A stretch of DNA of 64,000 nt, from the NCBI RefSeq assembly GCF_037975245.1, contig NC_092577.1, positions 4,684,001 through 4,748,000 of the forward strand, given 5' to 3'. The notes below the pieces were generated by a model. It had not been told where the DNA came from, made no database searches, and saw only the letters and a list, made by a program, of their open reading frames with translations. This document shows, in pieces, positions 33,673 to 62,551 of this stretch; the stretch's first letter is position 1; every line of letters starts with the position of its first letter. The DNA is from Apostichopus japonicus (Eukaryota; Echinodermata; Holothuroidea; Aspidochirotida; Stichopodidae). The translations under genes were made by a program, and so were the position numbers.

Positions 33673-33746
33673 ATTCTGGAGAAACTAAACATGCAAATCG
33701 CTAAAAATTGATGGCCTAATTACTGCTCCAGGCACCTACCATTTTT

Positions 33747-37212: not shown

Positions 37213-37416
37213 GTACAGTTTTTTGGGCTCAAACTGTCATCACATTTATAACATAGAATACTGCCTATCAATTGCACTAGCATATATGAGTCAAAATAGG
37301 CTAAGGTGTTATAAAACTGTAACTAACTTGCAAATAATAAGTCATTGAAAATTTTTTCATTATCATTTGAGCTGTTGCGTGTGTTAGTTTTGACTTACAA
37401 AATGTTGTTATTTTTG

Positions 37417-38560: not shown

Positions 38561-38564
38561 AAAA

Positions 38565-39720: not shown

Positions 39721-39789
39721 TTCATGTGAGAGGGCTTGATGGTCTAGCAGTGGTTAAGGCCCAATCAGGTTTTATATCCAAGAATTGTT

Positions 39790-39859
39790 CCCACCAGTTA
39801 GCTCAACAGACAGCTTTGTACCTATAAGGGAGTTGTCGCAGGTTCGAATCTGTGGTGGG
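39790..39859 (+). mobile_element. tRNA-like sequence, probably a SINE head
   Basis: It has a perfect 7-bp acceptor pairing CCCACCA/TGGTGGG, a D-arm AGCT..AGCT and a B-box GGTTCGAATCTG. The anticodon stem does not pair and the T-loop is one base too long, so it is not a functional tRNA. A second A-box-like segment (GGTCTAGCAGTGGTTAAGG) lies just upstream at 39751. Confidence 0.45.
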
Positions 39860-39898
39860 TCATATAAAACTAGTATAGAAAAACTACTTTTATCCATG

Positions 39899-40345
39899 GG
39901 CAAGACTAACTGGATTAGTCAAGTGACTGCTGGACTAATCATTAAGGTCGCTTGACAAAAGCCTGGTCGATAGAGCATTGTTGAAAGTCTAGCAAAAACT
40001 GGTCATGTGACTAATTGAATAAGTCAATTGACATCTTGACTAATCGTTTAGGTCGCTTGACTAAAGCCTGGTCGATAGAGGCATAATTGAATGACTAGTA
40101 AAACTGGTCATGTGACTAATTGAACTAGTCAACTGACATCTTGACTAATCGTTTAGGTCGCTTGACTAAAGCCTGGTCGATAGAGGCATAATTGAATGAC
40201 TAGTAAAAACTGGTCATGTGACCAGGTTTACTTAGTCATATGACCAGAACTATTTGGTCACTGGACCAAAAGTTAGTCAAGTGACTAGAATTAATTGGTC
40301 GATAGAAGCATTGTCTGGACTAATGTACTCTAGTCATCTTGACTA
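39899..40345 (+). repeat. Tandem repeat, about 118-bp unit, of GACTAGTC-type motifs
   Basis: About 3.5 units containing TGACTAATCGTTTAGGTCGC, TTGACTAAAGCCTGGTCGAT and CTGGTCATGTGACTA. The last unit is degenerate. Short palindromes (GACTAGTC, GGTCATGTGACC) recur. Confidence 0.85.
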
Positions 40346-41825: not shown

Positions 41826-41829
41826 CCAG

Positions 41830-41879
41830 GATCGTGAAAGTAAAGTAACAAGATGTGTATTGGTTGCGGCCTTGCCAGT
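41830..41879 (+). CDS. SERINC: SERINC exon with start codon
   Basis: Nine codons (MCIGCGLAS) from 41853, donor AGT|GTAAGT. A polypyrimidine tract and CAG end at 41829, so this is probably preceded by a non-coding exon. Coding part 41853-41879, phase 0 out. Confidence 0.85.
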
Positions 41880-44800
41880 GTAAGTTATGAGTTACGATTA
41901 AGTACCAGGCCTAGTCCTATCCTAACGTACTAAAGTAGTTTTCATTAGTATGGAGGCTAGCTCGCTAAATAACACTAGGCTCATATCATTGTGTCGCACT
42001 ATTTATTTGATACCTGAACGTGTCATTGTTGTTAGTGGTACATACAATTAGAAAGGCAAAGCTTCCCTTAAACTACATCGGGGAATGTTTCAATGGTTGA
42101 ACATATTTGACCCATGTTTTGCATAACCAGATGTTATACTAAGGTGTGACCAACTACTTTGTAATAAAATGATATTAACCACTAACTGGTAACTGTTGTG
42201 TTAGAACTTGCATTCATAACCGGCATTGGTGTTGTTATGTAAGGGTGTGTTTTGTCATCCATCCGTTTACAAAGTAACTCTTTAAAATAGTTATTTTAAA
42301 ATTGTTTATCATAAGTGCCAGGTCCAGCCTAAGTCAAATAATGTTAAAATTTGTCTTCAAAACTGTTAGGCGGGCTGAGAACCGAGGCCATAACTGCATT
42401 CCTAAGATGACACCAAGTGCTAACAATAACATTATGTCTTTTAACACTTTTCAAGTTTTTGCTTTTATACCTGTGTCATAGAAACAAACACAACATTAAA
42501 ACACAACTGAAAGTTAAAGTAGTATTAAGACAACCCCTCAAACACTTTGAAGCCATCTACACAATAGTAAATCACTTCGAAAAGTAACTTGACAAAGAAA
42601 TATATAATCGCTCAAATGGAGAATTAACTATTTTTTCTTTGTTTTTAATTTGCCTTCAGCTGGCCTGCTGTATCTCTTCGGCAGCATGCTCATGTTGCTG
42701 TGCGGCCTGCCCTTCATGTAAGAACTCAACCTCGACGAGGCTTATGTATGGGATCCTGTTTGTCATCGGCGCAATCGTCTGTATTTTGATGGTGGCGCCT
42801 TCTGTTCAAACAAGTCTGGCTTCCGTGAGTTAAAACATTTTCTCTTGGCAAAGACTGAAAGAACTGACTAGCTGATGCCAGGATGTTGTTCATCACATTC
42901 ATTCATTTCTGAAGAAATCATGTACAGTACTGAAATGTGGCAAGAATAATTATAAATACAAATTAATAAGAAAATCAATTTACCTTCCTACTGAAGCCAA
43001 ATAGGTACCATTTGGTTTCCAAGACGGCTTCGTTCACCATAGCTGCACAGAAATTGGGTGATGAATGGGGTATCCTTCACCTCTTTCATGATTTGATAAA
43101 GTGGTCAAATGGGGGGGGGGGGTATATATTGACAACTGTCCAACAGATGGGGATGTTAGGTGGTGGTCCCCAGAGCAGGATCAGTGTAAGAGACGTTTAC
43201 ATGCCTGCTTTGTTATTATCTGGACTGTCATTGAATAGAATAGGCTTGATGTAACATGGGATTTCAAATGAGTTGCTCCCGGCTGCCTAACATTTAGGAA
43301 ATGCTGAGTAATATACCCTCCTCCCCACCCCGCCTCGCCCGCCACCGCTCCCATCCCACCTTCATGTCATTAACTAATCATATTCCTTTCCTCTGTCAGA
43401 TTCCATTCCTTTGTGCAGAGGATTCCAGTCTGGTCGCGACCCTGAAAAAATTGTTCGATATCCCAGATACAATAGACACAAAACAAGTGTGCTCCCTAGT
43501 GGTCGGGTATCAAGCGGTCTATCGAGTCTGTTTCGGAATGACCTGTTTCTTCGTTTTGCTAGCAGTGATAATGTTGTGTGTCAGATCCAGCAAAGACCCC
43601 AGATCTGGAATCCAGAATGGGTGAGTTCTATTAATTTTTTTTTTTTTTTGGGACTCAATTGCCAGTGGTAATGGGAATATCTACATTTTGATGGTATGTG
43701 TCTGTGTGTGTGTGTTTAGTGTGTAGTGATGTGGCTTGTAAACATGATCACTTGCAATCAAGATGACTCTAAAAGCTGAAGCTTGCAGGTGAATTTTTAT
43801 CACATGGTATACGTATATCCACCTTGGTGAGTACAGCTACTCTGCTGTGTATGACATCTATAGGTCAAAGGCCATATGAGGTTAAACCGATGTCCTAGTC
43901 TGAAGGTCTTGTAAAATATTGAAAACTCTTTCAAGTAAAGCTTGGATGAACTTCAGACTTAGGTGTGCACGTTCGTCTTGGTAAGTACGAGAACCCTATT
44001 GGTTTTAAAACCCCCCTCCCAACCCCCCTCCCCTCCCCTCCCTTCCCCTCATATCCATATTCATGAATGTAATTTCACCATGTGTCTAGTTGTGAATAGT
44101 GTGTAATAACTAAAAGGACATCATGGCATGCTTAAATCTTGACATCAAAGATTATATCGTGGTCAATTGATGTCATCTTTGTTAAGGTATGGCAAATGAA
44201 TGGCATACACTATGACATGGACTTGTTCCTAGTGAACACCCTGCTGAATAGAACATAATGGAATAGCCAGCTTTTGAAGTCAAAGATCGGTTGATGTTCG
44301 TTCAAAGTTACTGTAAATGCACATCAAAATGAAAGCCCAGTGGGCAATTTTGTGATTCTGCATTGCCGCTCTGATCTTATACTTTGTTTCAGTATGATTT
44401 AAGTGCAGCTGTGGGTATTATACTATTTGATACAATATCAATAAATAACTTATAAATACAGTATATATCATACTAAGATGCACATGTATTCAGCCTCCGT
44501 GAAAGTCTCTCTTCGTTTTTGTATTTTTTTTCTCGTATTTAATGCTCTTGAATTTTTTGGCTCTTTAGATTTTGGTTCTTCAAGGTCCTTATCCTGATTG
44601 GAATAATTGTTGGCGCTTTCTTCATCCCCTTCGGCACTTTTGAGAAAGGTGAGCATTTGTGAAGTTGAACTTTTATTGATTCATACTTGGTAAAGATTCC
44701 TAAATCCTATTGGTCCATTCAGGTCAGCTGACCGTAGTTAATCCTGTGAGTAAAGCACGGTAAAATTACGGGGCATCACTTAAATAAATCTTTGGTTATA

Positions 44801-47800
44801 TGTAACCAAAATGTTTTGTTTTATGATTTTTCCCCCACACAAATGGTAGTGTATGAATGAACGGGGTTAATCAACGGTCTAGCGTGCGTTACTCACATGA
44901 TTAATGCACTCCGGGTGTTAATGCTGCACTCGGGCTCCGCCCTCGTGCATCGCTTGCATTATCCCCCGATCGTGCATTAATCCTGTGAGTAACGCACGCT
45001 AGACCGTTGATTAACCCCTCAATCTTCCTCAGTGAATTCATTACTGCAATTGTAATCATGAATGTGAACACCTGCTTCAAGACATAGTGCTTTGAACTTT
45101 GCCAGTCCACAATACTCACAATTTGTGTGTTTGTGCGTGTTTGTGTGTGTGTGTGGATGCGTTTGTCTTTTATTCTGACCGAGGACTTGAACGGAAGAAT
45201 TCCAGGTCCACGGTTGTGATTTCTAAAGAATCAGCACGTCCTCGCAAGAATTCCATTGTTAAGGGGTACCATTAAGGTTAGGGTATGTGGATTTGAACAA
45301 TGGAAAAAACAATGGGGTCCTCAAACTGAATGTAAAACACAGCTGGGTTTGTGTGTGTGTGTTTTTGATCTATTGTTTTGTTTTTGTCCTAGTTATTTCT
45401 TGTTCTTGTTCATTAGACATCCTCTGCTTGCCGATTCAGGAACTTTAAATTTGTAATCTTTCATTTTCTTTGTGATTCTAGTTTCCGTTAGTGAATGTAG
45501 TTCTAAATCTTGAAACCATGATATATTGCTAAATATCACTGACTACAGTATGGTCTTGGTGTAAGACTGTGACATTGTATGCATATTTTTCATAGTTCTA
45601 GTTACTGTTCTCTCCTCATGGGACAGAAGAAGCCTCATTGGCTTATCAAAGCCACAAGCTGACCGAAGTCAGTCTCTTACAGTCACATTTAACGTCCATG
45701 TTTATGAATTATGAATTGTCAACAACTCTGTCACTGGACAACATACGTTAATCTTTGGAGTGACTCGAACCGGGGACCTTGTGATTGGAAGGCACCGGCG
45801 TTAACCACTGAGCTAACACTCCTTAGTGTTATAATTTCACTCCTTAGTATTATCATAGTACCTTTCAGCTTTGAAGCTCTTCTTGATTGGTTCAGGCATA
45901 TGAAGATACCGAATATGACACTGGTTAAATGATGCGTGTATATAGGTACTGTTGTGGGGGAGTTCATAACACCTTGCTCGCATTAACGTATACTGTGAAA
46001 CAATGCTCTTGTCCTCATCCCCGTATTGTGGTGTATTATCGGTATGGTGGGGCCGTTCCATTAACGTATACTGTGAAACATTGCTCTTGTCCTCATCCCC
46101 ATATTGTGTGTATTATCGGTATGGTGGGGTCGTTCCATTAACGTATACTGTGAAACAATGCTCTTGTCCTCGTCCCCGTATTGTGGTGTATTATCTGTAT
46201 GGTGGGGTCGTTCCATTAACGTATACAGTGAAACATTGCTCTTGTCCTCGTCCCCGTATTGTGGTGTATTATCTGTATGGTGGGGTCGTTCCATTAACGT
46301 ATACAGTGAAACATTGCTCTTGTCCTCCTCCCCGTATTGTGGTGTATTATCGGTATGGTGGGGTCGTTCCATTAACGTATACTGCTAAACACTGCTCTTG
46401 TCCTCGTCCCCTCAGTGTGGCGTATCTTCGGTATGATCGGGTCATTCTGTTTCATCTTGATACAACTAATCCTCATCATCGACTTTGCCCACTCCTGGAG
46501 CGAGAGCTGGAAGGCGAAGATGGATGATTCTGAGAGCAAAGGATGGTTCTGTGGTAAGTACCAAAACATGGCTGGATTGGTGGTGTGGGGGGGGGGGGGG
46601 CTATGGGGAATATGCTTTGATCAATATTGTAGCCAAAAAGAGTTCACAGAATGGAAATTTCCGCCATGAGTGAAATGTGAATAAATGTGAATGTACTGAT
46701 GGGGTTTACACCTTTGGGAGAGAATGGGTAAGGAGGCAAGGGTCAGTGGTCAGAAAATGTACCTGCAGTTACAAAGTTACCTGCAGTACCTGCAGTTAAA
46801 ATGTACCTGCAGTTACCTGCAGTACCTGCAGTTAAAATGTACCTGCAGTTTAAAGAGATCCTTTCTAAATTGGGAGTAGATTATGTGTTTGTCCCTCATG
46901 GCGACGAGAAGTGGGCAATGACACCAAAGTGTGTGGTCTAGTAGTGAGTCCAGTACTGAAAGGTGGCAAATGTCTTTTGTAGTTTTGGTAGATTGGAGTG
47001 TGTGTGTCGAATGAAGACAGAAACATTTTCATACTGTCAAACAATACCTGTCAAGTTTTTGTAATATTTCCCCATTGTTTACCTAAATTTTAATATTTTC
47101 TCTGTGTCGCTTTCCTTTCACCTTTACTGGTGTTGCGACATTCCTTCTTATGTTCCCACTGAAGTGAGACGGTCACTGTGTAAGATCTCTTTTGTGGCTC
47201 AAACTTGCAATTTATCTTTTGTCTCTATTTTTTCTTTTTCAGCCCTGATGACCTCCACCATATTCCTGTACATGGTTGCCATCACAGGCATCGTTCTCTG
47301 CTTCGTCTTTTATGCCATACAGGTAGATTTTATTATTAATTATTAATTAATTAATTAATTAATTATTAATTATATTTATTATATTAATTATATATAATAT
47401 GTTCAAGAAGAAAACACAGACGAATGAAATCCAACACGTTGTAGCTATTTTTAATTTTGCTTTCACTATCATCTTATTTCATTGTCTTTTATACAGCCTG
47501 CTGCCACCTGCGGCTTACATAAGTTCTTTATCTCCTTCAACTTGGTCGCCTGTGTTGGGATCACTGTGCTGTCCGTTTTACCATTCATTCAAGAATGTAA
47601 GTAACCGTGTGTTGGGATCACTGTGCTGTGCATTTTACCATTCATTCAAGAATGTAAGTAACCGTGTGTTGGGATCACTGTGCTGTCCATTTTACCATTC
47701 ATTCAAGAATGTAAGTAACCGTGTGTTGGGATCACTGTGCTGTCCATGTTACCATTCATTCAAGAATGTAAGTAACCATGTGTTGGGATCACTGTGCTGT

Positions 47801-50800
47801 CCATTTTACCATTCATTCAAGAATGTAAGAAACCATGGGGACAGATTGTCTGAAGTCTGTCCACAAGTTTGTTTTCGTGAGCAGAATTTTAGAAAGATAG
47901 ACGACAGATTTATGGTGACACTGCATGGCTCCATGTAATCAAGAAAAGTGACCCAAAAAGTGTGGGGGAGGGGAGAAGGGGCGGGGGGATGGCAAACACC
48001 TCTTTTCTAGGTGTTGAAAAGTCTTGAAGTTTTTAAAGTTTAGTTTAAAAATTCTGAAAATTGAAGAAACCCTTCACAAGTGAACACTCATGGCTACTTG
48101 TAAGAAATTTCTTTTCCAGCACAAAAGAATATTTTTGGGATGTACATACAATTTTGTGATTGTTAATTTCCATCCTTCTTTGAAAGAGTGGGAACCAAGT
48201 CACTGGTGCAAGTTTAAATAAACTGAATCCGTAACTAGGATTAACTAGGATTCGCCGTTTCTGTATTTTCTGCATTGGTTTCTGACAAATGTTACTATCT
48301 TTAGATGTACTGGGGGCTTGGTTTAAACTTTTAAAAAGGATCGTTCATACACATTTGGTATATTATGATTATTATGCTTAATTTAGTTGTTATTATTGTT
48401 GTTGTTATTATTGTTATTATTATATTATTATTGTTATTATTATTGTTATTATTATGATGATCATTATTATTATTATTATTATCATGATTATTGTTATTAT
48501 CATGATTATTGTTATTGTTATTGTTATTATTATGATTACTATTATTATCATGATTATTACTATTGTTATTATTATGGTTATTATTATTATTATTATTTTT
48601 ATTATTATTATTATTATTATTAATTAATGACGTATGGTACTGTAAGGGTTGTATGAGGCTATTAATGAAACAAGGTTTGCTTTTTTAATCCATTTGGATA
48701 AAGTTTTAATGTATTTGTATTTTTATCATGACACTAACCGTCCTCTAATCTGCCTTTTGTTTAGACGTACCCCACTCTGGTATCCTGCAGCCGTCCGTCA
48801 TCTCTGTCTACACAGTATACCTCCTTTGGTCTGCTATGAGCAGTAACCCGGACGATAGTATGTAGATTTATGTTGCTTTTCACTGCTTTGTTCATATTTG
48901 CTAATAGTTGTTGTACCAGAGGTCATTGTCTTAAACTCCAAAAGTCACAAAGTAGGATTAATATTCGGCATAACTTTTTTTCTAATAGGGTTGTGAATGA
49001 GTGGAACGGTTTGCCTGAGAAAGTTGTACTTGCAAGTAGTGTCAATGGGTTTAAGAATGCTTTGGACAAGCACTTTAAGCATTGTAATCGGGTCTGAGTG
49101 TTTGTGTCTTCAGTTTTTTTTTTCCCTCCTATAGGGTCCTTGATTGGGACTTGAGTGTCCCTCCTGATTCTTTTTTTTCTACTAAACTAAACTTGTTTTA
49201 TAGGTCTTTCTTAGGTCTTTTATAGGTCTTTTTATGGTTTTGTTGAACTGAGGAAGTGATTTGAGCACAAGGTGGCCATTTAGTCATCTGAAGAAAGGCC
49301 AAAGCCCTTGATAATTGGGGCCATTAAACAAAAGCATCAACCCACCCGTTAGTAATAAAATTTGGTCAATTGTTGAAATTTGGTGTAAATCAGGTGTCAG
49401 AAAATTGATGGATTGATCGATTTATTTAGTTATTTTGGGAAAGAAGATAATTTTCAAAGTCATCATTGAAAATACATTCAATTGTGTTTATGCCCCTAAA
49501 AGAAAATGTAGCAGTATCTTTGAGTTGGTTTTAGTATTTGGATTGGGTTTTTTTTTTTGGCAATTTTTTTGGTGCAGCATCTCTGAGTGGAGATCTTGCT
49601 TTTTGAAAGAAGAAACATTCCACACTTATCCCAGTATATTATACCAAACTGGACATGTTGTCTGTGTTAGGTCAAACAAATCAAAGCAGTTGATTGGTTG
49701 ACCCTCAATCCAGCCATCCTCTTGCCATTCACGTTTTTTTAAATAACACGAAGGCTGTTCATCAGTGTTAGCAATTCACTTTGAAATAACACATCCCTTA
49801 GGACAGGGTTGTCCAACCTACGGCCCACGGGCCACAGTCCGGCCCGCCGCAGGGTTGCGTCCAGCCCGCCAGAGACGCTCTACGGTGCGAAATTTAGTGA
49901 GCAGATTTATTGATAACAATTTGAAGCTATATAATCAGTCATTCGAACCTACAGGTCTCAGCGTACGGGGGCGGGGCGGCTGGACTTCATTCATCTGCTT
50001 TATCAGGAAAGAAAATAAATCAGTGCGCACCGCGCGCAGTGCTCACATTTTGTTGCCTTGGGCTTCGTGCAAAAAATTGAAAAATCGTAGGGTTCATGCA
50101 GCCCCCTCCTTCATCATAATCATTCCATGTGGCCCTCCTCTGCAAAAGGTTGGACAACCCTGCCATAGGACAATCATACAGTGGATACTTTGCTCAGAAT
50201 AGATGTTGATTATAATTAGAACTTCAAATCACTTTGATTTTTTCACAATCCCTGGTCACTTTATAGATAGAAAGATCTACATGTTACTTAAATAATATGT
50301 TTTTATAATTATTTTTTGATATAATATATATATAAATATATATTTTTTTAACATGTAACATACATCACGTCACATTCATGAAGAAAACTGCTCATGTTAC
50401 ATCATCGAAGCCACAATGCATTTTTGCATTCTGGTCGTATAAAACATCATTATAAACTATCTTTTATATATAATATATATTTGTTTTATATATAATACAT
50501 ATATTTGTATATTTTAAAATATCTTGTGTAATTGATAAAGCATGCTGAGATGTCTAATGAATGCCTACTTCTGTTTGGTCCACATTGCAGAGTGCAACCC
50601 AGGTTTAGAACAAATTCTGAAGTTGAGCAACGGTACAGATGTCTCTCCTCTCGGTATCAGTGGTGAAGATTGGGTTGGCATGATAGTGCTTCTGTTCTGC
50701 GTAATCTATGCCAGGTAAGGAAACCTGAACTCTCTACAATCAGGTAAAACCATTGATTGGGTTGGCATGGTAGTGCTTTTGTTCTGCGTAATCTATGCCA

Positions 50801-53800
50801 GGTAAGGAAACCTGAACTCTCTACAATCAGGTAGAACCACTGATTGGGTTGGCATAAGTAGAAAGAATATTTCAGATATTTCACTTTTAAAATATGCTAA
50901 ACTTTGGGAATGCTAGATTAACGTTATCTCATAGTAATGAATCCAAACAACCAATGAAGTCTGTCTTTCCCAGTGATACATTTCTGTTGGTTATTTTTTT
51001 TTCTTACAGCATCCGCACGGCCTCTACCAGCAATGTCGGAAAGCTTACGGGGAATAACGTGAGTATGAATCCGCTACAACATTATACGAAGCTTATACAG
51101 CATAAAACTAGTATGAATCCGCTACAACGTTATACAAGCTTATACAGCATAAAACTAGTATGAATCGCTACAACGTTATCCGAAGCTTATACAGCATAAA
51201 ACTAGTTTGAATCCACTACAACGTTATCCGAAGCTTATACAGCATAAAACTAGTTTGAATCCACTACAACATTACACGAAGCTTATACAGCATAAAACTG
51301 CAAAATGTGAACTAGGAGCTCCTTACATTAGTAGAGGGTGACAGGTAATCCCACCCCTCCCTCACCCATACCCGTGGGGTGAAGCATTTGATTAGAACAG
51401 ACAACTGAGAAGGATCATAAACAAACTATCCCGGGCTGCATAGACTTAGTCATGAGATTTCAACAAAGAGAAACCTTAACAGCTTAAGTCTACCGACAGT
51501 CCGGTTTGCCACCCTCGACTTGTAATTTACGACAGTCGTGGTTACTATCAGAAAATGGAGCAACTTTGTCCATTCTGGAGAAGATTCAATTGTCGTTACG
51601 AGCAAAAAAATTCCTTGATCCAACATCAAGTAATAGACTGAAGTCACTGTGTCATCTTGTAAGTCAAAATACTAGACAAACTGTTTCAAGTCATTTCACA
51701 CTTGGTTACTCGAGTCATAACTCATTACAATAGTGGATCGAGCGGTTACGAGTCAAATACTCCATATTTTTGGAAGAAGACTTGATGAGAAATTGAACTC
51801 TTGATAACAGTTTTCCATGTGAAAATAAGTGCCCAAACACCAACACACTTAAGGGGTGCATTTAACAATGAGGTCACCCGAAAGATTTTGCGTTCTCAAC
51901 GTTCTTTGAAAACCAGCAAATCGTTTAAATATGTGTGACTTTACTTGAAAGTTGCAATAGTTAGTATTTCTGTACGACTTGTTCTAAAACTGCTTGAAGA
52001 GCTGACTTCATCTTGGTACCAATGTAAGACTTGTTATTGACCTCTTTCAGAGCATAGCTAAAACTTGATATCTCTGTAAAGGTTTTGTTTAAAAACTGCT
52101 CCGAAAAAAGTGACTAAAAGTTGTATTTGCTACTAGACTTGGTGAACTGAAAGCTGTAAAGAGGACTTGGTTTTATCACCTTAAGACTTACTTGAAAGTT
52201 TACAACTTTGTATCGCCGGACTTGCTATAACACTGTTTGAAAACTGCTTAAAAAGGGAACTAAGAGTTGGTTCTGCTTGAGGTGAAAGCTTAACTTGAAT
52301 GCTACTTGAAATGATATCTATTATAGTTAGTATCATAAGAAGACTTGCTTGAAGACTGCTTGAAAAGTAACTTAAAGTTAGTATCACTGTAGGTTTGCTT
52401 GATTGCTATTTGAAAAAATTGTGGCTACAAGCTAGTACCATGAAGATACTTGCATTAAGACTGCTTGAAAAGTACTTAAAAGTTAGTACCACTTAACCAG
52501 GTTTGCTTGAATGTTACTTGAAAACAAAAAGAAAAGTTATTATTAAAAATGAGACAAAATGAGAGTTGTTAAACTGGTTTGAAAAGGTAACTGGAAGTTG
52601 ATAATCACTGCAAGGGTGCTTGAATAAAATTTGAAAAAGGAGCTGAAAGCTTGTACCATTAAGAAACTAGCTTGAAAGGTAACTGAAAGTTGCTGTGAAA
52701 GGTGCTTGGAACTTTGGTAACTGAAAAATACAGTACTTGAAAAGGTAACAGAAAGGTACTTGAAAATGGAGCTAAACGTTAGTATCAGCAGAAGACTGGA
52801 TTTTTAACTCTGCTTGCAAATACTTGAAGCAAACTTGAAAGTGATTACTGCCTGAAGTGCCTTTGTGAGATTTTCAGTTTACAACAATCATGTCGTGATC
52901 AATTCTTCATCTCCTCGTAGTCTTTTCTTTTCATCATGGCACAATTTTTCCTTTTTCTCTTCTTTGACTCTTTGGTCTATCTACTTTTCTTACAGAAATT
53001 TTTTTTAGAACCTTTATTGTAAATCAGTGTGCATGCAAGTCTGGAGGTACATTGAAATTGTCGCTTTTTAGGTTTCACCACTGACATACTAAATTTACTG
53101 AGCATCATCAAAGTGCCCCTAACATGGGGGGGGGGGTCCTTTCACAAGGATCGCTCTTCAAATATGGTTTGTAACTCAGGTGTTTTAAATATAAACAAAG
53201 GAAGAATATAGGGCCAATTAAAGTTCTTCCAACCCTGAGTTTTATTGCATTTACTGAATGAATATTCTTTTTCAGTTATGGCCAGTAAGCAGAATCAATA
53301 ATAAATAATAATAATAATAATAACTGTTTTTTGTATAGCGCCGGTATCCAGAGCACAAGGCAATGTTCAAATGCGCTCCCATATAAAGGGTCTAACTGAT
53401 ATTTCTCAAAAAGGATAGTTTTTAACTGTTTCTTGAGATCCGTCTTACTGGATGGAGAAATAGGTGCCTCTTGTTTGGCTATGAGATTGTTCCACAGTCG
53501 TGGGGCCATCAAGGAGAAAGCTCGCCCCTTCGGAAACAACGACTACCATCTGAGAAAAACTTTGTTTCATAATGTTCTGTGTGAAGCATCTTTGTATTAA
53601 AATGGGTTGTGTGTATGTTACCATCTCAGTACACAACCAAGCCTACTGTGAAAACTGTAGGCACTCCATTGTTTACATCTGTACTTTCTCAACCTGGGCT
53701 CTTTGATTGTGGGGGAGGTTCTGTGATGGGAAAAGGAATTCGCTAGAGTGGGGGGGGTATGGGGGAACCAAGGAAAACGTGGGCTTTGTGAAAGACGAAC

Positions 53801-55215
53801 AGGTTGGTCAACATTTTACTCAAATATGTGCTTTCAAGAGAGTCCAAGCAGAGTCTTTTTGGTCGAATAAGACCCTGAATTATGGCTGAGCTCAGCCCCT
53901 GCCATGATGGGGCTGAGGGCATAGGTGATACTCGCTATGTCTGGGGGTCCGTGAAATTCTGTTCATTGTCCCAGTGGTTTGTGGATGAAGAAATGGTTGA
54001 TGAGCTAGGGGCTTACATCAATAGAAATTTGACACAAAACTGTCGTAAATGTATTGGTTGTCTTGCCTGCGGTATTTGTTGGAATACGCTGCTCCCGGGT
54101 TGCATGGCATGTTTGCTAAACTATTAAACATTCTGTAATACTGGTTGTATCCATCTTCACTGTCGGTGTCTTCCCCCAGATTTCTTAAGTAGAATGTAAC
54201 ACCATTTGTTACACCCGACAAATTATCTTTAGAAAGGTTGAATTGTTCAGCAGCACTAATTTCCATCAAAAAGACGTTAATAAAAAATTCAAAGTTTGTG
54301 TCGTTTCAAAATTGTTCGGGTTTTGAGAATAATTGCCACATCCAGCGTACCTGTCAAAATTCTATAGATATTTTTTTTTAAATTCAGCTCTAAACAAATA
54401 ATCAATTTCTTTGTCCTTTTCTTGCCAACATTCTAGGAGACAATTGTAAGTTAGTTGTGTGCATGGCAGTAGCCAATCATAGCAGAGCATTTGTCTGTCT
54501 GTTGTTATCCTTCATGAATATGCAATATCCGATTTTCTCCAGATTTTCTATCATTTATAATTTCTCATTTCTAGTTTTGCTTTCATGATTCATGTCTGAG
54601 TTTCTATTGCCTCGCGACCCCCAAATTTAGGGCCGATACTGATAAGCTCCAGAATTGTACATCGTTGTGTTCTTAATTTTCACCTTATAGTTTGAAATAC
54701 TCTCCTTATTACAGATTGTATTTAAAGTAATGTGATTATTATGATAATAATCACATTATTGATATCACGTAATCACATTATTGATAATAATGATGAATAT
54801 TGATATCACATATCACATTATCACATAATCACATTATTGATAATAATGATGAATATTGATAATCGATATCACATAATCACATAATCACATCATCGATATC
54901 ACATAATCACATAATCACATCATCGATATCACATAATCACATTATTGATAATAATGATGAATATTGATAATAATGATGATAATAATAATGTGATTATTTT
55001 GATAATAATGTGTGGTACTTTGGGTTAGCCTGGATAAAGCCTTGGTTCATTACATCTAATAGCCTGTGACGATGTTTGCAGTTTGAAAGTCAATCCATCA
55101 AATCAACGCAATAGAATGTGTTAAAACCGTGTGTTTCCTACATTGAGCAATAGCTACTGTTTCAAATGGCTCAATTTATCACAAGGACACAGGGGTTTCA
55201 TTAGGCTATACAGAC

Positions 55216-55272
<57 letters not shown>

Positions 55273-58200
55273 GCATGAACTTTTTCTGCAAATTCGCGGA
55301 ATATCGTGATTTCTTTTCTACCTCGGGGACAAAAACTATTATCCTAACACACTGTAGCATACGCAAACTGGAGCCTATACCGCAATTTTTGCAATGTTCT
55401 GTGATTTTTTTTACCCCAGGCTCATCCCTGATATATGTAGGATTACAGATGGGTTAGGAAGGAATGGGGAAAGGGAAGGTTGCTTACAGTAAGGTCAAGA
55501 TCAACATTTAGTATGGATAAGGTACGAGCATAAGTCATAGTAAATACCTAATTGATAGGTTTCCCGACAGGATTATGCATCATCTCCAATCATGTCATTA
55601 AAACTACCATATTAAAACCTTGGGTATTATAGGTCATCGTTTATCAAATTTTAGACAAGTTTGTAACGTTGCAATGCCTTTTGGTGGATTTTAATTTTTA
55701 AATTGAAAGTTCCACAGAGAGCTGGAATGGTTAACACTGTATGTTAACAATACACTGTTATTAAATTTGCAAGTGGCTGATCCCCTCCCCCTTCCTGCAT
55801 ACTATCCCCTTCAGTTGCATTGCCCATCAATGGCCTGTTCACAGCTTCAGTGGGGGTTTTTCCCCATATTTACCCCCAACATTTAAGGACTTATTTATGC
55901 TAAAATTAATGCCTTTTCCATATATCAGGTATGAAAGCTTCTTTTTGATATAAATTCTGCATGCAAAAGTTACTTAAACATATTTAATAGCTTCATCCAA
56001 ATGTACCCTATTTTCATTGTTTACAACCCCATCACCCTCTTCAACCACCCTCTTCACCCACCACCCCCCTTCCCCCTCACCTCCCCAGCATCTCTTAGAC
56101 TTATCATTAAACCGGAATTGGAACGATGGAGTGTCTACACAGTTGATTTCAGAAAAGTGTTTCTTTTTCTTAATATTCTTCCCATTCTTCTCCCTTTCCT
56201 GTGTGTATTTCTTTGATGCTTGCCTTTCTGCCCACGTCTGGAAAGAAAAACAATTAAGTGTAACTTATTTCGTTGGTGAAGTATTATGGGAATTCAGTTG
56301 ACTTAATTGCATGACAAGAAGTAATGTACTGGTCATCATTCATATGTTATTGAACGTATAATAAAATTTGATGAAAATGTAGCATGGAAGTCCTTTCAGC
56401 TATATGTATTTTAAATTAAAATTCCATCGCAAACTGGACTGTGCACCTTCTTGAGCCATTAAAAAAATAAGTATCTTAGGTCGTCGTCGTCGTACATGGC
56501 ATTAAATATTTTAGCTGTTGTCTTGCGAACAAAAAACATCCCCAACTGTGCTGCTTTGACAAAAAATGTAAGTTTACATAAAGTAAAGACGGATTAATTT
56601 TTTTTTTATGGCATAAAATAAAAAGTTTAAATGTACTCTAAATATACATATATGGCTGTTTATAAGATAAAACCCAGATTCGAACCAATTTTGAACTTGT
56701 AGTCATTTTAAATTTGGTGTCATCAATTTTTCGGTCATTCCATCAAAATCTATAAATGTGAATTGTTTCTGTGTCAAACTACAGTGTCATTGATTGTACA
56801 CTCGTTACACATCATCCTCATTAAATATCTAGGATAGAATTTAGGCAGATTTGGAAAGTACACATTACTATATTTTGATTCACATATTTCATAACGTACA
56901 TGCCTCCAGTATGTATCCTCAAAAACTGCCAGTGTAGTTTTCAATAGGTTTCATTTTAAGTTACTCCTTGTTTGTATTCTTTATAGGATATGGCAGACTA
57001 TGGGTCAGGGGAGGTAAGCATCGACTCTTTCCTATTGATTGCAGCAGAACTGGAAATTACCATTAATGTCACAATGGAATGGCCTATCAATAATACATAT
57101 GTTTATTGCATGAGTATGTCAACTTTAAGGCCAAAAAAGGAAAAAAATAATAATTATAATAATAATGTGGGGGTGGGACGTGGGGGGGGGGCCTTAATGC
57201 ACCTCATTCATACGGCATAATTATGGTACCTTTTAGATACTGTCGTGTGTGTAACTACCACCAAGCAAGTTCAATCATACTCAAACTTAAATCTTTGAAT
57301 TATCCTACGGGTACTACTGTAGAGGTAACGTTGTAAACCATTTTAAATGAGACTACTTAAGGAAAAAAATTAGGCTGGGCTTGCCCAAGAAATGCCATGG
57401 TGGCCCTTAATGTATTTCCAGGCCTGCTGTTATCTTTTCATCTTCAGTTCTGTTTTATTTCTTATTCATCGCACAACTTGTCTTTTTCGTTTCCATTTCT
57501 CTTTCTGTCTCTGTACTTAGCGTCTTTCCTTTAATCATACTTCATCTTAAAATCTCACCAGAACTGTTTGATCCTGCAAATGTAGAGCAAATAACTGGGT
57601 TAGAAGTGACAATGCCTATATATGCAACTTTTACTGTCACTTAAACGTTGCCATTGTTCCTCTAAAAGTCTCCCATCCATGCCCCCTCCCCCATTTCTCC
57701 CTCCACCCCCCCATTGATCCCCTCCCCAATCCCCTCTTTCTAACAAAATTTTTCATAAGATTTATAACAAAGTACTCTGATAATCCTGCAGCAGATTTTA
57801 CTGTGTCTCTGTGATTAAATTACCTGTTTGATCCTCCCGATATCAACACCAGTTCTACCCCATATTAACCTGCTATGTACAGCATAAATTCATCTTTCAA
57901 AAGGGTTGGAATCTGGGAACTGTTTAATGATAGCGTGACCCTTGATGATATGTTAAGGACTAACAGAAGACTAGCTATTTCTAGCAGATAGTTCATTCTC
58001 CCCCGGGGGACACGTGGTTGTGGTGCACTGTGGTGCCCCAGGAGAGATTGATTGAATTGTGCACACTTTGGTGTGTGGGTGTGACAAGTTACCAATGACC
58101 AGGGGTTAATAATAATAATCAGCGCACTGAGACTTAAGTGTGTATTTGCGCATTATAAGAACTGTGTATTATTATTATTATTCTCATTGGTTAATTGTGC

Positions 58201-58515
58201 AGACATTACATGCGTGTGTGTGTGTGTGGCTGTGGCACATCTGCGTGTACGTGTGAGTGTTTGACACATTACTTAGTAAAGCAATCCACTTTGAAGCTTA
58301 AAAGAGTTTACACCATCATGCAGAAGCTATGCAAAGTCAAGCACTCCATTCTGGTAATATTTTGTCACAGTTTGAAAGGTAGTGCCCATGTAGCTAATTA
58401 TTGGCAAGTTGCAATGGTCAGGCTCTTTAAAAATTCAAATTTTCATCTTCTAATGGAAGAGGCATGGACAAGGAAAGGACAAAGTTGTAAAGATTTTGAT
58501 ATCTGTTCAATTTGA

Positions 58516-58550
<35 letters not shown>

Positions 58551-61500
58551 TATATCCGTGTACATGTTCCAGTGTAAGACACCAGCCCCGGGTCATACAT
58601 TATGTAATGGTGTCCCTTTAAATATCCTTACATGACTTGATATTTCCTTGACCAAATCTAAAACAAACAAAAAAACATATGAAACTATTTGGCAAACTTG
58701 GATAAACTTGTAAAATTACAATTAAAAGCATTTAAATTTTTTGCTCCTAAGAAGGATGCCAAAAGCAATTTGATGTGTTGGTATTTGGTGATGTCACAGA
58801 CTATTTGCATAATTCATGTTTCCTCTGCTGGGAAATGGGCTTATTAAGATGCGGGAGTCAGAGGGAGTCAGATGGGGAGTCACTCCTGTGGGCTTCATGT
58901 TATATTTGCTGTGTACATATTTTAATTTAATTTTTTGCATTTTGATCACCTTTAAGATGTTTAATATAAGAGATTCTATAATTTTCAGTGAACCATGGTA
59001 ATCTGCTTGTATCATTTCATCCAGTTGGGACATTTTTCATTTCATACATCAAACATTCCTGTCCTGCTTCGAAGAACTTGTTCTAACAGTATGAATATTA
59101 TGTTTCTATCACATGAAGGTTACAAACTGTTCATACTGTCAGTACGAGTGCTATGAAGCAGGATATGAGAGGACAGTGTAGATTGGTTGTAGCATTAGGA
59201 AAATTGTCCCAATTGGCTGATAATTTGCTGTGTCTCATGCATATTCATGGTGCTCATAAATGTCACATGACCTGTGTATCAATTATAAACTATTACTTAA
59301 ATGTATGGCATTGTATGGGTGTTTCAGCACTTTGGTGACATACTTACTGCATACATATTGTAGTTGATTCATTGCATTATACTGCCAAAGCATATTAAGT
59401 AGGTTACTTTAGCCCCTAGAAATGTGCTTAACATACCAGGGCTGAAACTTTGCTATCTGGCAATCTTGTTGTGATCACCTCCTAAAGATATGACATAAAA
59501 GTCATCCTCACCTGCAGTATTTCCCGCTCAGGAAGAGCAATATGGAACTCAAATCGTGATTAATAACCCAAACACCCTCCCACCCCCCCCCCCACCCCTC
59601 TCCATCACTATAGTTGTGGCAGAGAATTTATTCAAAACCAAGACAGATGGCAAGAAAAGTTTTAGTTTCATAAAGAAAAAAAATCACCAAACAGCTATAT
59701 GTCAAGAGGTGTAAGACCCTCTCAAGCCTATGGTTATAAACATTGCATGCATTGCATTGAATTCCAATTATGTAACTTTGGTTTGAATGTACCATAGTAG
59801 TTCACACTGACTGAGGTATGTAGTCACAACTTTTTAATACAGGTGGTGTCAACAAATCTGTGTCCACATTTGTTAGAACTTTGCATAATTTTTTTTATGT
59901 CGCTTTATGATATCTATATCACATTGCCTAATGCTTCATCATATGTTGTATTTATGTCGGATATTTTTCTTTTTCTACTCTCCTCTTTTTTCCATATTCC
60001 TTAAAGAAGGTCTTGATTGATGAAGGAAAAGGTAAGAATATTTTCATCAAAATAATATTAACAAAAATGTTAAGATATTATTATATTTAATATAGGAAGC
60101 AAACTTTCTACAAGTGTGTTGTCCATCTGTTATTTTGGGCATCCTTTGACAGGCGGGCACTTTATGCAAAGTCCCTAAAGTTTACACGTCTCTTGTTCTT
60201 AACTTCCAGTCATGCAATGTTTAGCTCAAAATAAAGGCTACTTGGCCACATTAATAGGAATTTGGAAAAACGTCTAGGGCCACAGGAAATACGGCTGCAA
60301 TTTGCCCCGCCTGTTTGCTACAGATGGTTCGTTTGGTGTAGAACATAAAGAAAGTGTCTTTGACTTATCATTTGCAGTTTTTGGTGTTTTCGGTGATACT
60401 CTAATATTCGATGCAAAATACTAAAAAATTATCGTCGACTAATTATCGAACCACAGAGCTGCTTTTAGTGTCTCATTTTCAGTGAAGGTGATATAATCCT
60501 GGTCTCTGTTTGAGTTGATTAAACTTTTACCACCGGAATATTCTTTTAACGTTGACCCACTCACTCCCCCCCCCCCCACCATCCCTGATGTGATTTCTTA
60601 TTGGTCCTTCCAGACTCATCTTCTCCGAGTGGTGACGTGGAGGATCAGAAGGTCTGGGATGATGAGGAGGATTCGGTATCCTACAGCTATTCATTCTTCC
60701 ACTTCATGTTGGCTTTGGCGTCCTGTTACATCATGATGACCCTCACCAATTGGTTTGAGTAAGTTTAACAACCTGTTTTCCTATTTTCCTTAGCTTTTTT
60801 CCATTAATGTCTAGAAGTTACACAAAACTTACACATGTTCCCACCCGTTCATCATTACCTGTAGACAGGCATGAGCTTTTTTTGCATATTCGCGCAATAT
60901 CCGTGATATCTTTTCTACCTCGGGGACAAAAACTATTATCCTAACACGCTGTAGCATACGCAAACTGGAGCCTATACCGCAATTTTTGCAAAGTTCCTTG
61001 ATTTTTATTTACCCCAGGCTCATCCCTGTGTAGATGAAAACAGGTGCCTACTTTTTCCCTCTCTCAAGTTTTAAGACGAGATACATTTGTTAGGGGTACA
61101 TGTCCTGGGAACAGTTTGAATGCTCTACACCAACATATATAATGGTTGTGTCCTCTTAATAGCAGCTTTGAAAGAGTTACTTTATTCACTTTTTAATAGT
61201 CTCATATGTCATCTTATATTCTCTTTCTTGTGGCACGGCGTATTCAAAGAAACACATGTATCATTTACCACACCTTGACACATGTTCCCGGTTGATTCGA
61301 GCAAAGAACGACGCCATTTCGCAGTGAATTATTTTTATCTGATACCACATGGCAAATTTGGCTATGTGATGTGGTGAACTTGCTAACACAAAGTGCAGAG
61401 ATGTGTGGTAGTTTGCAGTAATTGAATGTAGACCAAATCTCATAGACCTTGTAAATCAATGAAGATTTCTTAATTCCGTATTCCTGAATTCAGTAATCCA

Positions 61501-62551
61501 AAGATTATTCAACGCAGCTGTAATGAGACGATTCGTTTATTTTGCTGTGATATGTTATTATCTGCTATCATCTGATACAATCTGTTTGTCTGTCTGACTG
61601 TCTGTCTGTCTGGTAAATAAAATCTTTGGTTTAACACTGGAAAACACTTCTTGCTTGAATACGTTCTTAATATCGAATGAACTCTATATACCGGCACATG
61701 ACCGTAAAGACAGAACCAATGACAACAACAAATTTCAAACACATACTCCAAAGGCACGCACGCACACTCGCACAAACACGCACACGCGCAGTAGCACTGC
61801 AACTTTACATGACGCACACTTCGTAACAATACACAAACAGCACATCGTGTGAGCGCGTTTACAGACCTACAGGTAGCAGCACAAAATGTGGACCATAAAT
61901 TTTTCCCTGTGATGGCAGAATTTGCTCATCAGAATGTTGATTGAAATCAGCAGAAATCCTCTTTTGGTAGTTGCTAAATGATTTCAACGCGCACAAACTA
62001 GCCTCGCCACTGTACAAATGGGCAGTTTAGAGCATCGGTTTTGCAAACTATAGAGCGCGACCCTAAGTGGGTCATGGAAATATATAGGGGGGGGGGGGTG
62101 TCACAAGGGCTTTCCAGACATCAAAGAAATGTATGTACAATTTTTGGAGCTTTCCGGGCGGAAATTAATCAGGTGATTTTTTTTTTAACATCAAGTCCAT
62201 AGACCAAGCCACCTTTCACACATTACTGAGCATTGAATATCTGAGGGGTATTTGTGGATGGGAAGAGGGGGGGGAGGAGGAGGGGTCTGGTTGGTTGTGG
62301 TTCGGTCCTCATTAGCCTTAAAGTTGTGGACCTCTGCTCAAGCAAGAAGATCTTATCGTCCACGTATTTGATGTCATCTTATATTTTACCTCTTTCTCTG
62401 TCCTTACAGCCCGAACCTGGAAGACAAAGAATCCCTACTCGCTGGTGTAGGAGCTATGTGGGTCAAGATCATATCCAGTTGGGTCTGTTTGGGTCTCTTC
62501 GTCTGGACCCTGTTGGCCCCCCTGATTCTAAAAGAAAGAGATTTCTCTTAG
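41853..62551 (+). CDS. SERINC: Serine incorporator (SERINC/TDE1 family), 14 coding exons
   Basis: Coding exons: 41853-41879, 42660-42824, 43400-43620, 44569-44648, 46416-46553, 47243-47322, 47497-47596, 48765-48857, 50591-50714, 51010-51058, 56987-57013, 60007-60031, 60614-60758, 62410-62551. The sum is 1416 bases, 471 residues plus stop, the usual SERINC length. Family landmarks are all present: a Cys-rich N-terminus ([18 protein letters not shown]), [40 protein letters not shown], the [20 protein letters not shown] block, and the C-terminal [19 protein letters not shown] and [12 protein letters not shown]. About ten hydrophobic segments are visible. Family knowledge: a membrane carrier-like protein linked to serine incorporation into phosphatidylserine and sphingolipids and to lipid scrambling. 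ATG 41853 starts the Cys-rich N-terminus directly. No frameshift or stop. Confidence 0.97.
42660..42824 (+). CDS. SERINC: SERINC coding exon 2
   Basis: Acceptor TTTGCCTTCAG, donor TCC|GTGAGT, 55 codons. It carries the Cys-rich stretch and the first membrane segment ([20 protein letters not shown]). Confidence 0.95.
43400..43620 (+). CDS. SERINC: SERINC coding exon 3
   Basis: Acceptor CCTCTGTCAG, donor AATGG|GTGAGT. It encodes an extracytoplasmic loop with the conserved [14 protein letters not shown] motif and the next membrane segment ([20 protein letters not shown]). Phase 2 out. Confidence 0.95.
44569..44648 (+). CDS. SERINC: SERINC coding exon 4
   Basis: Acceptor GGCTCTTTAG, donor GAAAG|GTGAGC. 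It encodes [20 protein letters not shown] and PFGTFEK, the family's most conserved membrane segment. Phase 1 out. Confidence 0.97.
44728..44763. repeat. Fragment of the 44863-45018 foldback MITE
   Basis: The sequence GTTAATCCTGTGAGTAAAGC matches the inner part of the right arm of the nearby MITE (ATTAATCCTGTGAGTAACGC). Confidence 0.6.
44863..45018. mobile_element. Foldback MITE, 156 bp with 47-bp inverted arms
   Basis: Arms 44863-44909 and 44972-45018 are reverse complements with one mismatch, starting GGGGTTAATCAACGG. They surround a spacer rich in TGCAC and CGGGC motifs. It would form a long hairpin in the SERINC pre-mRNA (intron 4). No clear target duplication was seen. Confidence 0.85.
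45165..45340 (+). repeat. Third copy of the 37.5-kb direct repeat
   Basis: Shares CTGACCGAGGACTTGAAC, GGTTGTGATTTCTAAAGAAT and ATGGGGTCCTC with 37479 and 37679. It is preceded by a TG-rich tract, as in those copies. Confidence 0.75.
45595..45822 (-). mobile_element. tRNA-derived SINE in SERINC intron 4
   Basis: The minus-strand head at 45822-45757 has pairing ends GGAGTG/CACTCC, A-box TTAGCTCAGTGGTTAACGC and B-box GGTTCGAGTC. The T-stem is deleted, so it is not a working tRNA. The body extends to about 45595. It lies 160 bp from the 78-bp array. Confidence 0.65.
45982..46449 (+). repeat. Junction array A: 78-bp units ending in SERINC exon 5
   Basis: Units start (ATTAACGTATAC) at 45982, 46060, 46137, 46215, 46293 and 46371. 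The sixth unit runs through the true 3' splice site into exon 5. The first five carry GTATTGTGGTGTATT(A)TCGG where the sixth has TCAGTGTGGCGTATCTTCGG. Each is therefore an intronic copy of intron end plus exon start, with the AG acceptor lost. In the exon frame each copy has a TAA stop. Confidence 0.9.
46416..46553 (+). CDS. SERINC: SERINC coding exon 5
   Basis: Acceptor GTCCCCTCAG, donor TGTG|GTAAGT. It encodes [20 protein letters not shown] and [14 protein letters not shown]. Its first about 34 bases are the terminal unit of the 78-bp tandem array that fills the preceding intron end. Confidence 0.97.
46755..46858 (+). repeat. Minisatellite of TACCTGCAGT (PstI-rich)
   Basis: Seven to nine TACCTGCAG motifs in two higher-order units separated by TTAAAATG. 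Located in SERINC intron 5. Confidence 0.9.
47243..47322 (+). CDS. SERINC: SERINC coding exon 6
   Basis: Acceptor TCTTTTTCAG, donor CAG|GTAGAT. It encodes one membrane helix ([20 protein letters not shown]). The intron after it starts with an AT-rich TTAATTAATT repeat. Confidence 0.96.
47330..47402. repeat. (TTAA)n-type low-complexity tract
   Basis: Begins six bases after the exon 6 donor; TTAATTAATTAATTAATTAA then TATATAAT. Confidence 0.9.
47497..47596 (+). CDS. SERINC: SERINC coding exon 7
   Basis: Acceptor TTTTATACAG, donor GAAT|GTAAGT. It encodes [20 protein letters not shown] and [13 protein letters not shown]. The last 46 bases plus 11 intron bases form unit 1 of a 57-bp tandem array. 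Confidence 0.96.
47551..47835 (+). repeat. Junction array B: 57-bp units starting in SERINC exon 7
   Basis: Five units, each exactly 57 bp, start at 47551, 47608, 47665, 47722 and 47779. Each holds 46 bases of exon 7 end and 11 bases of intron start. Units 1 to 4 keep a GTAAGT donor; unit 5 has GTAAGA. Only use of the first donor (47596) gives the SERINC frame. Reading on meets TGT AAG TAA. Confidence 0.95.
48378..48627 (+). repeat. (TTATTATTG)n-type trinucleotide tract
   Basis: About 250 bases of TTA/TTG/TGA triplets. The 78-codon Tyr-rich ORF across it is an artefact. Confidence 0.95.
48765..48857 (+). CDS. SERINC: SERINC coding exon 8
   Basis: Acceptor TTTTGTTTAG, donor GATA|GTATGT. It encodes the hallmark [20 protein letters not shown] and [14 protein letters not shown] fragment begins soon after the donor. 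Confidence 0.97.
48895..49190 (+). mobile_element. Non-LTR retrotransposon 3' end in SERINC intron 8
   Basis: The frame to 49097 reads [20 protein letters not shown] and [20 protein letters not shown], then [14 protein letters not shown], the typical C-terminus of CR1/Jockey-like ORF2. It is followed by a T-rich 3' UTR-like piece. It is 5'-truncated and begins within about 40 bases of the exon 8 donor. Confidence 0.85.
49804..50162. mobile_element. hAT-type MITE, 359 bp, in SERINC intron 8
   Basis: The ends are CAGGGTTGTCCAACCT and its inverse. The flanks are CCTTAGGA and CCATAGGA, an 8-bp duplication with one change. The left end continues ACGGCCCACGGGCC, the classic hAT/Charlie pattern. 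The 145-codon ORF across it is not a transposase. Confidence 0.92.
50591..50714 (+). CDS. SERINC: SERINC coding exon 9
   Basis: Acceptor CACATTGCAG, donor CCAG|GTAAGG. It encodes [20 protein letters not shown] and a membrane helix ([12 protein letters not shown]). The final 47 bases and the donor are duplicated downstream (87-bp unit). Confidence 0.96.
50668..50858 (+). repeat. Junction array C: 87-bp units starting in SERINC exon 9
   Basis: GATTGGGTTGGCATG recurs at 50668 (exonic), 50755 and 50842 (partial). Unit 2 is a near-perfect copy of 47 exon bases plus the GTAAGG donor and 40 intron bases. Use of the second donor would meet a stop at once (AG GTAA). Confidence 0.95.
51010..51058 (+). 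CDS. SERINC: SERINC coding exon 10
   Basis: Acceptor TTTCTTACAG, donor AAC|GTGAGT. It encodes [17 protein letters not shown], the conserved SIR(T/S)S motif. Its 3' end is the first unit of a 48-bp tandem array. Confidence 0.95.
51038..51300 (+). repeat. Junction array D: 47-48-bp units starting in SERINC exon 10
   Basis: AGTATGAATCC or AGTTTGAATCC recurs at 51062, 51110, 51157, 51204 and 51252; AGCTTA recurs in step from exonic 51042. The exon end (AAGCTTACGGGGAATAAC) and donor form the first, most diverged unit. Later units have lost the GTGAGT donor. Confidence 0.9.
51960..52870 (+). repeat. Degenerate minisatellite of ACTTGAAA / AAAGTTAGTA motifs
   Basis: Roughly 65-70-bp units containing GCTTGAAGACTGCTTGAAAA, GTAACTTAAAGTTAGTATCA and similar. 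Strongly diverged. In SERINC intron 10. Confidence 0.7.
53276..53640 (-). mobile_element. Non-LTR retrotransposon 3' end, minus strand
   Basis: The frame 53539-53276 contains [20 protein letters not shown] and [20 protein letters not shown], a LINE ORF2 C-terminus. It ends in a (TTA)n tail (+ strand AAT repeats at 53298-53322), as CR1/L2-like elements do. Confidence 0.8.
54725..55012. repeat. ATCACAT / GATAATAAT minisatellite
   Basis: Interspersed repeats of ACATAATCACATTATTGATA and GATGAATATTGATAATAATG, ending with an inverted TGATTATTTTGATAATAATG that can pair with the start. Confidence 0.9.
55219..55269. repeat. (TA)n microsatellite
   Basis: About 25 TA repeats directly abutting MITE-A copy 3. 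Confidence 0.95.
55270..55430 (+). mobile_element. MITE family A, copy 3 (SERINC intron 10)
   Basis: 161 bp, CAGGCATGAAC to GCTCATCCCTG. The flanks ATATATAT/ATATATGT agree at 6 or more bases, but the left flank is a microsatellite so this is weak. Highly similar to copies 2 and 4. Confidence 0.85.
55431..56986. other. SERINC intron 10, 3' part
   Basis: AT-rich, no repeat or second gene recognised. A C/T-rich segment lies at 56030-56090. Confidence 0.5.
56987..57013 (+). CDS. SERINC: SERINC micro-exon 11 (27 bases)
   Basis: Acceptor TTCTTTATAG, donor GAG|GTAAGC, nine codons (DMADYGSGE), phase 0 at both ends. It lies in the variable cytoplasmic loop, so it could be skipped without frame change. 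Candidate alternative exon. Confidence 0.7.
57014..60006. other. SERINC intron 11
   Basis: Contains C-rich tracts (57690, 59585), a TG-rich tract (58208-58256) and a (TA)n run at 58518-58548. No exon or mobile element is supported. A GTCGTCGTCGTCGTAC-like triplet run in the preceding intron (56480) is similar low-complexity sequence. Confidence 0.5.
60007..60031 (+). CDS. SERINC: SERINC micro-exon 12 (25 bases)
   Basis: Acceptor TTCCTTAAAG, donor AAAG|GTAAGA. It encodes KVLIDEGK. The alternative acceptor three bases on (AAG) would drop one Lys. The phase change (0 to 1) makes it obligatory for the downstream frame. Confidence 0.8.
60614..60758 (+). CDS. SERINC: SERINC coding exon 13
   Basis: Acceptor TCCTTCCAG, donor TTTGA|GTAAGT. 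It encodes an acidic loop ([17 protein letters not shown]), the invariant [10 protein letters not shown] and the next helix ([16 protein letters not shown]). Confidence 0.97.
60866..61028 (+). mobile_element. MITE family A, copy 4 (SERINC intron 13)
   Basis: 163 bp, CAGGCATGAGC to GCTCATCCCTG, flanked by a perfect TGTAGA direct repeat at 60860-60865 and 61029-61034. Same orientation as copy 3. Confidence 0.88.
61580..61615. repeat. (TCTG)n microsatellite
   Basis: TGTCTGTCTGACTGTCTGTC-type tetranucleotide run. A CA/CGC-rich tract follows at 61740-61800. Confidence 0.85.
62033..62115. mobile_element. hAT-like terminal relic
   Basis: The segment CGGTTTTGCAAACTATAGAG followed by CGCGACCCTAAGTGGGTCAT resembles the common hAT end with a GACCC..GGGTC hairpin. 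A G11 run follows. No partner end identified. Confidence 0.35.
62410..62551 (+). CDS. SERINC: SERINC last coding exon
   Basis: Acceptor GTCCTTACAG. It encodes [20 protein letters not shown], the last helix ([19 protein letters not shown]) and KERDFS, stop TAG at 62549-62551. Confidence 0.97.

Follow-up and report, generated by a model that had tools for sequence, protein, structure and literature searches.

The window analysed here, a stretch of 64,000 nucleotides (nt) from contig NC_092577.1, contains a SERINC gene in which several exon edges lie within or beside tandem arrays of short units. The gene was located on the + strand at 42660..62550, and 11 exons were placed (42660-42824, 43400-43620, 44569-44648, 46416-46553, 47243-47322, 47497-47596, 48765-48857, 50591-50714, 51010-51058, 60614-60758 and 62410-62550, numbered 2-10, 12 and 13). 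The joined product is covered end to end by the Pfam Serinc profile PF03348 (E 3.6e-149, profile 1-434/434), and its relatives of solved structure (7ru6, 6sp2 and 7rug) are serine incorporator 3 and TMS1d. With the exon-side splice sites taken, the reading frame is unbroken across exons 2-10 and across exons 12-13; the sole frame break separates exon 10 (phase out 0) from exon 12 (phase in 1), where the linking exon is missing. The introns measure, in order, 575, 948, 1767, 689, 174, 1168, 1733, 295, 9555 and 1651 nt; the value of 9555 nt is for the interval that separates exon 10 from exon 12 and contains the unlocated exon. Exon 1 was not found among the ATGGG starts at 25001-42640, nor was the linking exon found in a search made by eye in translations only. 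A preliminary description of this DNA credited the gene with thirteen introns, a number that is not established, because 11 located exons together with the two missing ones imply at least 12. The window yielded no functional RNA at Rfam gathering scores and no tRNA in a scan under the bacterial code.

Tandem arrays at four SERINC exon edges

Three arrays, which we call A, B and C, span splice junctions. Array A (45981..46447, + strand), scored by Tandem Repeats Finder (TRF) as 6.0 copies of 78 base pairs (bp) with 93% matches, spans the acceptor of exon 5 (46416..46553, + strand, 138 nt, phase 1 in and 1 out). Its authentic unit is the last one, running from intron -46 to exon +32. The AG is gone from all five intronic copies, which read CCCCGTAT or CCCCATAT against the authentic CCCCTCAG, so that the edge repeated in A is a dead one. 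The authentic unit is identical to four of the five copies at 64-65 of 78 bases, compared with 73-76 among these four themselves; the fifth copy lies one base out of register, which makes an ungapped match count meaningless for it. One unit is 77 bp long, so the period of 78 is not strictly held.

Arrays B and C both lie over donors. Array B (47551..47834, + strand; 57 bp, 5.0 copies, 96% matches by TRF) spans that of exon 7 (47497..47596, + strand, 100 nt, phase 0 in and 1 out) with a unit of 46 exon and 11 intron bases. Every copy of B retains the donor, which reads AATGTAAGT at 47597 (authentic), 47654, 47711 and 47768 and AATGTAAGA at 47825, and the copies share 54-56 of 57 bases with the first unit. 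Array C (50668..50855, + strand; 87 bp, 2.2 copies, 96% matches by TRF) spans the donor of exon 9 (50591..50714, + strand, 124 nt, phase 1 in and 2 out); its unit comprises 47 exon and 40 intron bases, both copies carry the donor CAGGTAAGG (50715, authentic, and 50802), and the second copy is identical to the first at 83 of 87 bases. By eye, a further donor-like sequence, ATCAGGTAAAACC or ATCAGGTAGAACC, follows the first donor of each C unit (window 50715-50841) at a distance of about 29 nt, which places four donor-like sites inside about 120 nt.

In all three arrays the real splice site is that of the outermost unit on the exon side (acceptor, with the exon from 46416; donors at 47597 and 50715). 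A, B and C are thus junction-spanning minisatellites, a structure also called a mirage, after an original paper that is reportedly Canestro 2002; in A, the splice site of the copies is mutated. The arrays lengthen their introns, which measure 1767, 1168 and 295 nt. Two further claims of the preliminary description hold: the unit sequences are unrelated to one another, as local tandem duplications, and the identities given above make different ages apparent, with the authentic unit of A far further from its copies than those of B and C. A dispersed origin of the A and B units was considered and rejected, since a whole-genome DNA search with these arrays found each of them once, at the SERINC locus only.

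Array D (51062..51299, + strand; 48 bp, 5.0 copies, 94% matches by TRF) is intronic and adjoins the donor of exon 10 (51010..51058, + strand, phase 2 in and 0 out). It begins at intron +4, and the similarity of exon 10 to its unit is insignificant under two scorings (P 0.14 with a gapped one and 0.44 with another). At lag 48, the test for a hidden edge unit gives 20 of 52 matches (mean 12.9, standard deviation 3.2) and one exact in-register run of 7 bases; runs as long as this occur at 9 lags of 20-1999, lag 48 included. The likeness at this lag may be a faint hint of a hidden edge unit, and no proof of one. Lags of 46 and 48 and 2% insertions or deletions show that the period of D, too, is not strictly held. 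Given the start at intron +4 and the insignificant match of exon 10, D is not supported as a junction-spanning array; the preliminary view that four junctions each sit inside an array therefore stands for A, B and C, and for D gives way to an array that abuts the junction, with no significant sign that the exon edge belongs to it. An imperfect 18-bp repeat at the acceptor of exon 3 (43378-43419, 2.3 copies, 83% by TRF) was left uncounted, since its position is within the pyrimidine tract and the test for duplication described below does not pick it up.

Duplication at exon edges and elsewhere in the genome

Because SERINC had been picked for its unusual look, an outside control was needed. We used 25 exon matches (50 edges), 21 of them to the myosin head and 4 in a SERINC paralogue on contig C13; the 21 were taken from 70 listed myosin-head profile matches, chosen for closely spaced exons before any arrays were seen. 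A position was scored as duplicated when an 81-base query centred on it had a second copy at most 1 kb away that crossed the centre. The same statistic was applied to a random set of 2984 positions (19 loci of 10 kb, after removal of locus L019, a satellite, and of all low-complexity positions) and to a gene-interior set of 683 positions (7 of the 12 control loci, again with low-complexity positions removed). The excluded locus, on contig C19, is a random 10-kb stretch nearly filled by a 165-bp satellite (L019:359-10000, 59.5 copies, 95%).

Of the 50 control edges, 3 had a second copy within 1 kb. The corresponding counts were 130 of 2984 in the random set (4.4%, or about 1 in 23 of the genome positions sampled) and 32 of 683 in the gene-interior set (4.7%). 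The control edges do not differ significantly from either set (Fisher P 0.48 against random and 0.73 against gene interior). In SERINC itself the statistic marks 2 of 21 edges, or 3 of 21 when A, missed because it is too diverged, is added, compared with 19 of 335 interior positions; SERINC and control edges do not differ significantly (P 0.35). A duplication process aimed at splice junctions, as proposed in the preliminary description, is not borne out by this small control, and the comparison it named as its own refuting check, the rate of arrays at junctions and elsewhere, shows no significant excess at exon edges when run on this small scale.

Three more junction-spanning arrays lie among the 25 control matches, all in myosin-head genes and none in the paralogue (sites assigned by eye). 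At L045:204-575 an acceptor occurs three times, each as CTTAG/GTTGT, at spacings of 125 and 124; at L042:1028-1619 a donor occurs at least four times, each as CAGGTGAGA, at spacings of 124, 163 and 163, the array reaching the end of the stretch; and at L040:4865-5240 a donor occurs twice, each as GAAGTAAGT, at a spacing of 220. With TRF alone (period of at least 10), arrays touch 3 of the 25 control matches; the L040 duplication is missed in this way, and one of the touched matches has only a 16-bp A+T-rich repeat before the L036 exon, with no copy of the edge.

The extra splice sites, or decoys, appear intact by eye in five of the six arrays, where all 11 are preserved (four in B, one of them altered at +6; one in C; three in L042; one in L040; two in L045). 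In A, the most diverged array, all five are dead. This pattern fits a decay of decoys with age, for which a single array proves nothing.

Explanations of the junction-spanning arrays

We consider it probable, at roughly 0.8, that the arrays arose as tandem duplications of the minisatellite type, which hit exon edges about as often as the background rate predicts and which splicing tolerates. Local tandem duplication is common in this genome, presumably through slippage or unequal exchange, and exon edges would be struck about as often as other positions. The unit touching the exon body keeps a working splice site, and if the splicing machinery chooses that site, an array straddling the edge can survive. 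The exons are about 100-140 nt long and most introns are long, conditions under which exon definition would pair the closest 5' and 3' sites across the exon. By such cross-exon pairing, the surplus intron-side sites would be ignored as decoys in the host animal and the arrays would be near neutral, leaving the decoys free to gain or lose copies, to homogenise and to decay. The safety of this neglect is expected to be greatest in A and B and least in C.

Several observations weigh against this reading, and some of them favour a mutational process that prefers splice junctions, for instance R-loop, transcription-linked or splice-linked duplication. When the six arrays with a period of at least 40 were placed at random in SERINC, barring any placement that fell within an exon or covered one entirely, 0.73 edge overlaps were expected; the three strict arrays on 21 edges give P 0.029 for at least three, and with D counted as lying within 5 bp, P is 0.0027 for at least four. 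The 3 of 21 SERINC edges exceed the background (binomial P 0.061, or 0.012 if D is counted), and the pooled edges lie at about twice the background of 4.4%, an insignificant difference (6 of 71 with A, P 0.13; 5 of 71 as run, P 0.24). The control is small, and the 95% interval for its 3 of 50 edges, 1.3-16.5%, leaves room for a few-fold excess at junctions; its edges are the ends of profile matches and not mapped junctions, so junction duplications may be undercounted. On the side of splicing, the intron of C is 295 nt long, or about 194 nt without the array, and exon definition may not hold there; according to passages of PMC9225289, moreover, short introns favour the downstream donor in human cells, and across all human alternative-donor events, with strength not yet equalised, about 60% showed a preference for the downstream donor. 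Yet the control edges are not significantly more often duplicated than random or interior positions, SERINC is statistically indistinguishable from them, and the in-gene excess comes from a gene selected for its appearance; we therefore regard a junction-preferring process as unlikely.

The nominal periods of the four SERINC arrays (78, 57, 87 and 48 by TRF) are all divisible by three, as had been stressed at the outset, with the spacing not strict in A and D. The filter that was suggested to explain this, which would retain only such periods on the ground that decoy use must stay in frame, seems to us scarcely credible. Of the 20 arrays in the random sample that measure 40-200 bp, 10 have a period that is a multiple of three (P 0.09), a slight surplus with no link to junctions, and lancelet PGBD5 carries comparable units of 60 and 108 bp (passages of PMC3902484). 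However, none of the three control arrays follows the rule, leaving three of six junction arrays divisible by three (P 0.32 for at least three), and the non-junction arrays of 25-500 bp, counted without zinc-finger coding arrays and the junction arrays found by TRF, give 17 of 47; a published lancelet unit measures 157 bp (passages of PMC3087553). An in-frame stop also follows the authentic exon end after 6 nt in B, 2 nt in C, 34 nt in L042 and 162 nt in L040, in each case before the next donor copy. Use of a decoy in B or C thus runs into a stop, and unit length cannot matter through the protein.

The same stops could be given a function: if the decoys were used and the resulting transcripts degraded, copy number would set SERINC expression. 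The intact decoys of B and C suit such a scheme, as does a lancelet globin array whose copy number differs between two haplotypes, with 6 and 3 units (PMC3087553, in part). It is nevertheless distinctly improbable, given that the decoys of A are dead, that similar arrays occur in unrelated myosin genes, that reverse-transcription PCR of the lancelet globin suggests regular splicing (same passages of PMC3087553) and that the authentic site has the advantage under the cross-exon rule (PMC9225289, in part). An origin of the arrays in assembly error, for which one might cite the copy number of lancelet PGBD5 arrays, different in two assemblies, is very unlikely. In that case re-examined and new reads upheld the structures (PMC3902484, in part). 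Here, scattered substitutions distinguish the copies, and the assembly (671,581,487 bases in 35 contigs) is contiguous, with 21 contigs of 19-46 Mb accounting for about 626 of 672 Mb.

With 3 of 50 control edges affected, junction-spanning arrays seem frequent enough to matter. A wider proposal, possible but doubtful at present, is that mirages are no lancelet oddity: several per cent of echinoderm exon edges would carry intact decoy arrays, kept neutral by exon definition, and perhaps the same would hold in other invertebrates with long introns. Were this true, the arrays would form a standing polymorphic pool for new introns, new exon ends and decay-coupled switches; they should be depleted beside short introns, and old arrays should lose their decoy sites, as A did. 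Natural runs of identical splice sites would offer a test of how the cell picks the right one, and possibly a nursery of introns.

The site of intron 4 (44649-46415), whose acceptor bears A, is uninterrupted in the SERINC paralogue on C13 (L032:2364-2540), and the boundary between exons 3 and 4 is shared by the two genes to the residue; the intron was therefore either gained in SERINC or lost in the paralogue. By eye, a dispersed sequence around GACCGAGGACTT is common to 45124-45340, within intron 4, and to 37460-37868, upstream of the located exons, where it forms two tandem 199-bp copies (TRF). Intron 8 contains an element of about 360 bp (~49804-50162) that by eye resembles a short hAT-type transposon: its terminal inverted repeats, CAGGGTTGTCCAACCT, are 16 bases long and perfect, and its 8-base target duplication is imperfect. 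Elsewhere in the window, outside the located exons, TRF reports an array of a 399-bp unit at 34865-36684 (4.6 copies, 92% matches), and a C2H2 zinc-finger coding array lies on the - strand at 5857-6655, with the 84-bp period expected for such proteins.

Comparison with lancelet mirages and splice-site choice

The host of these arrays can be placed from its mitochondrial genes. In COX1 on contig C35, AAA stands for Asn at 11 sites (for example in STNHKDIG and GGFGNW), ATA for Ile at 23 sites and AGA for Ser at 7, and the gene order is cox1-nad4L-cox2, the nad4L and cox2 frames having been read by eye. This code and gene order we take to mark an echinoderm, and hence a host that is not a lancelet. 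COX1 also occurs in pieces on contig C29 (14745-31219), with its 3' part present twice; these pieces are either mitochondrial fragments that entered the nuclear assembly or the product of an error in assembling a mitochondrial contig.

Mirages are tandem duplications of exon/intron boundaries that were named in lancelet Adh3 and seen in globins (PMC3087553); in the passages of this paper and of PMC3902484 that bear on them, the lancelet genes concerned are Adh3, the globins BflGb6 and BflGb9, PGBD5 and troponin C. The arrays described here resemble them closely. Lancelet units measure from tens of bases to about 160 bp (150-160 bp among the sizes in PMC3087553), the 60- and 108-bp arrays of PGBD5 lie at splice sites, donors and acceptors are both affected, each unit includes the exon edge, and many copies keep the AG or GT (PMC3087553, PMC3902484). 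The lancelet boundary units are, by the same passages, exempt from homogenisation within the array. Our arrays differ in their echinoderm host and in the genes that carry them, SERINC and myosin genes with six arrays in all. That published mirages come from lancelets and these do not concerns the taxon and leaves the structure unaffected. Searches of one open-access library, only some of them aimed at echinoderms, turned up no echinoderm report of mirages; as far as these searches go, junction-spanning minisatellites here reach a second phylum.

Two other systems come close to these arrays. When human minigenes offered two identical donors between introns of 365 nt, splicing used only the upstream one, and in exon-defined exons a preference for the upstream site was likewise seen with near-equal donors (PMC9225289, in part). 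Arrays B and C, with their natural runs of identical or nearly identical donors behind short exons, are alike in layout; there the test system was human minigenes, whereas here the splice sites are read from sequence. The potato RdRp case (PMC4974935, in part) shares with our arrays a duplication across an intron-exon boundary, and differs from them in that the arrays described here are not tied to any new intron.

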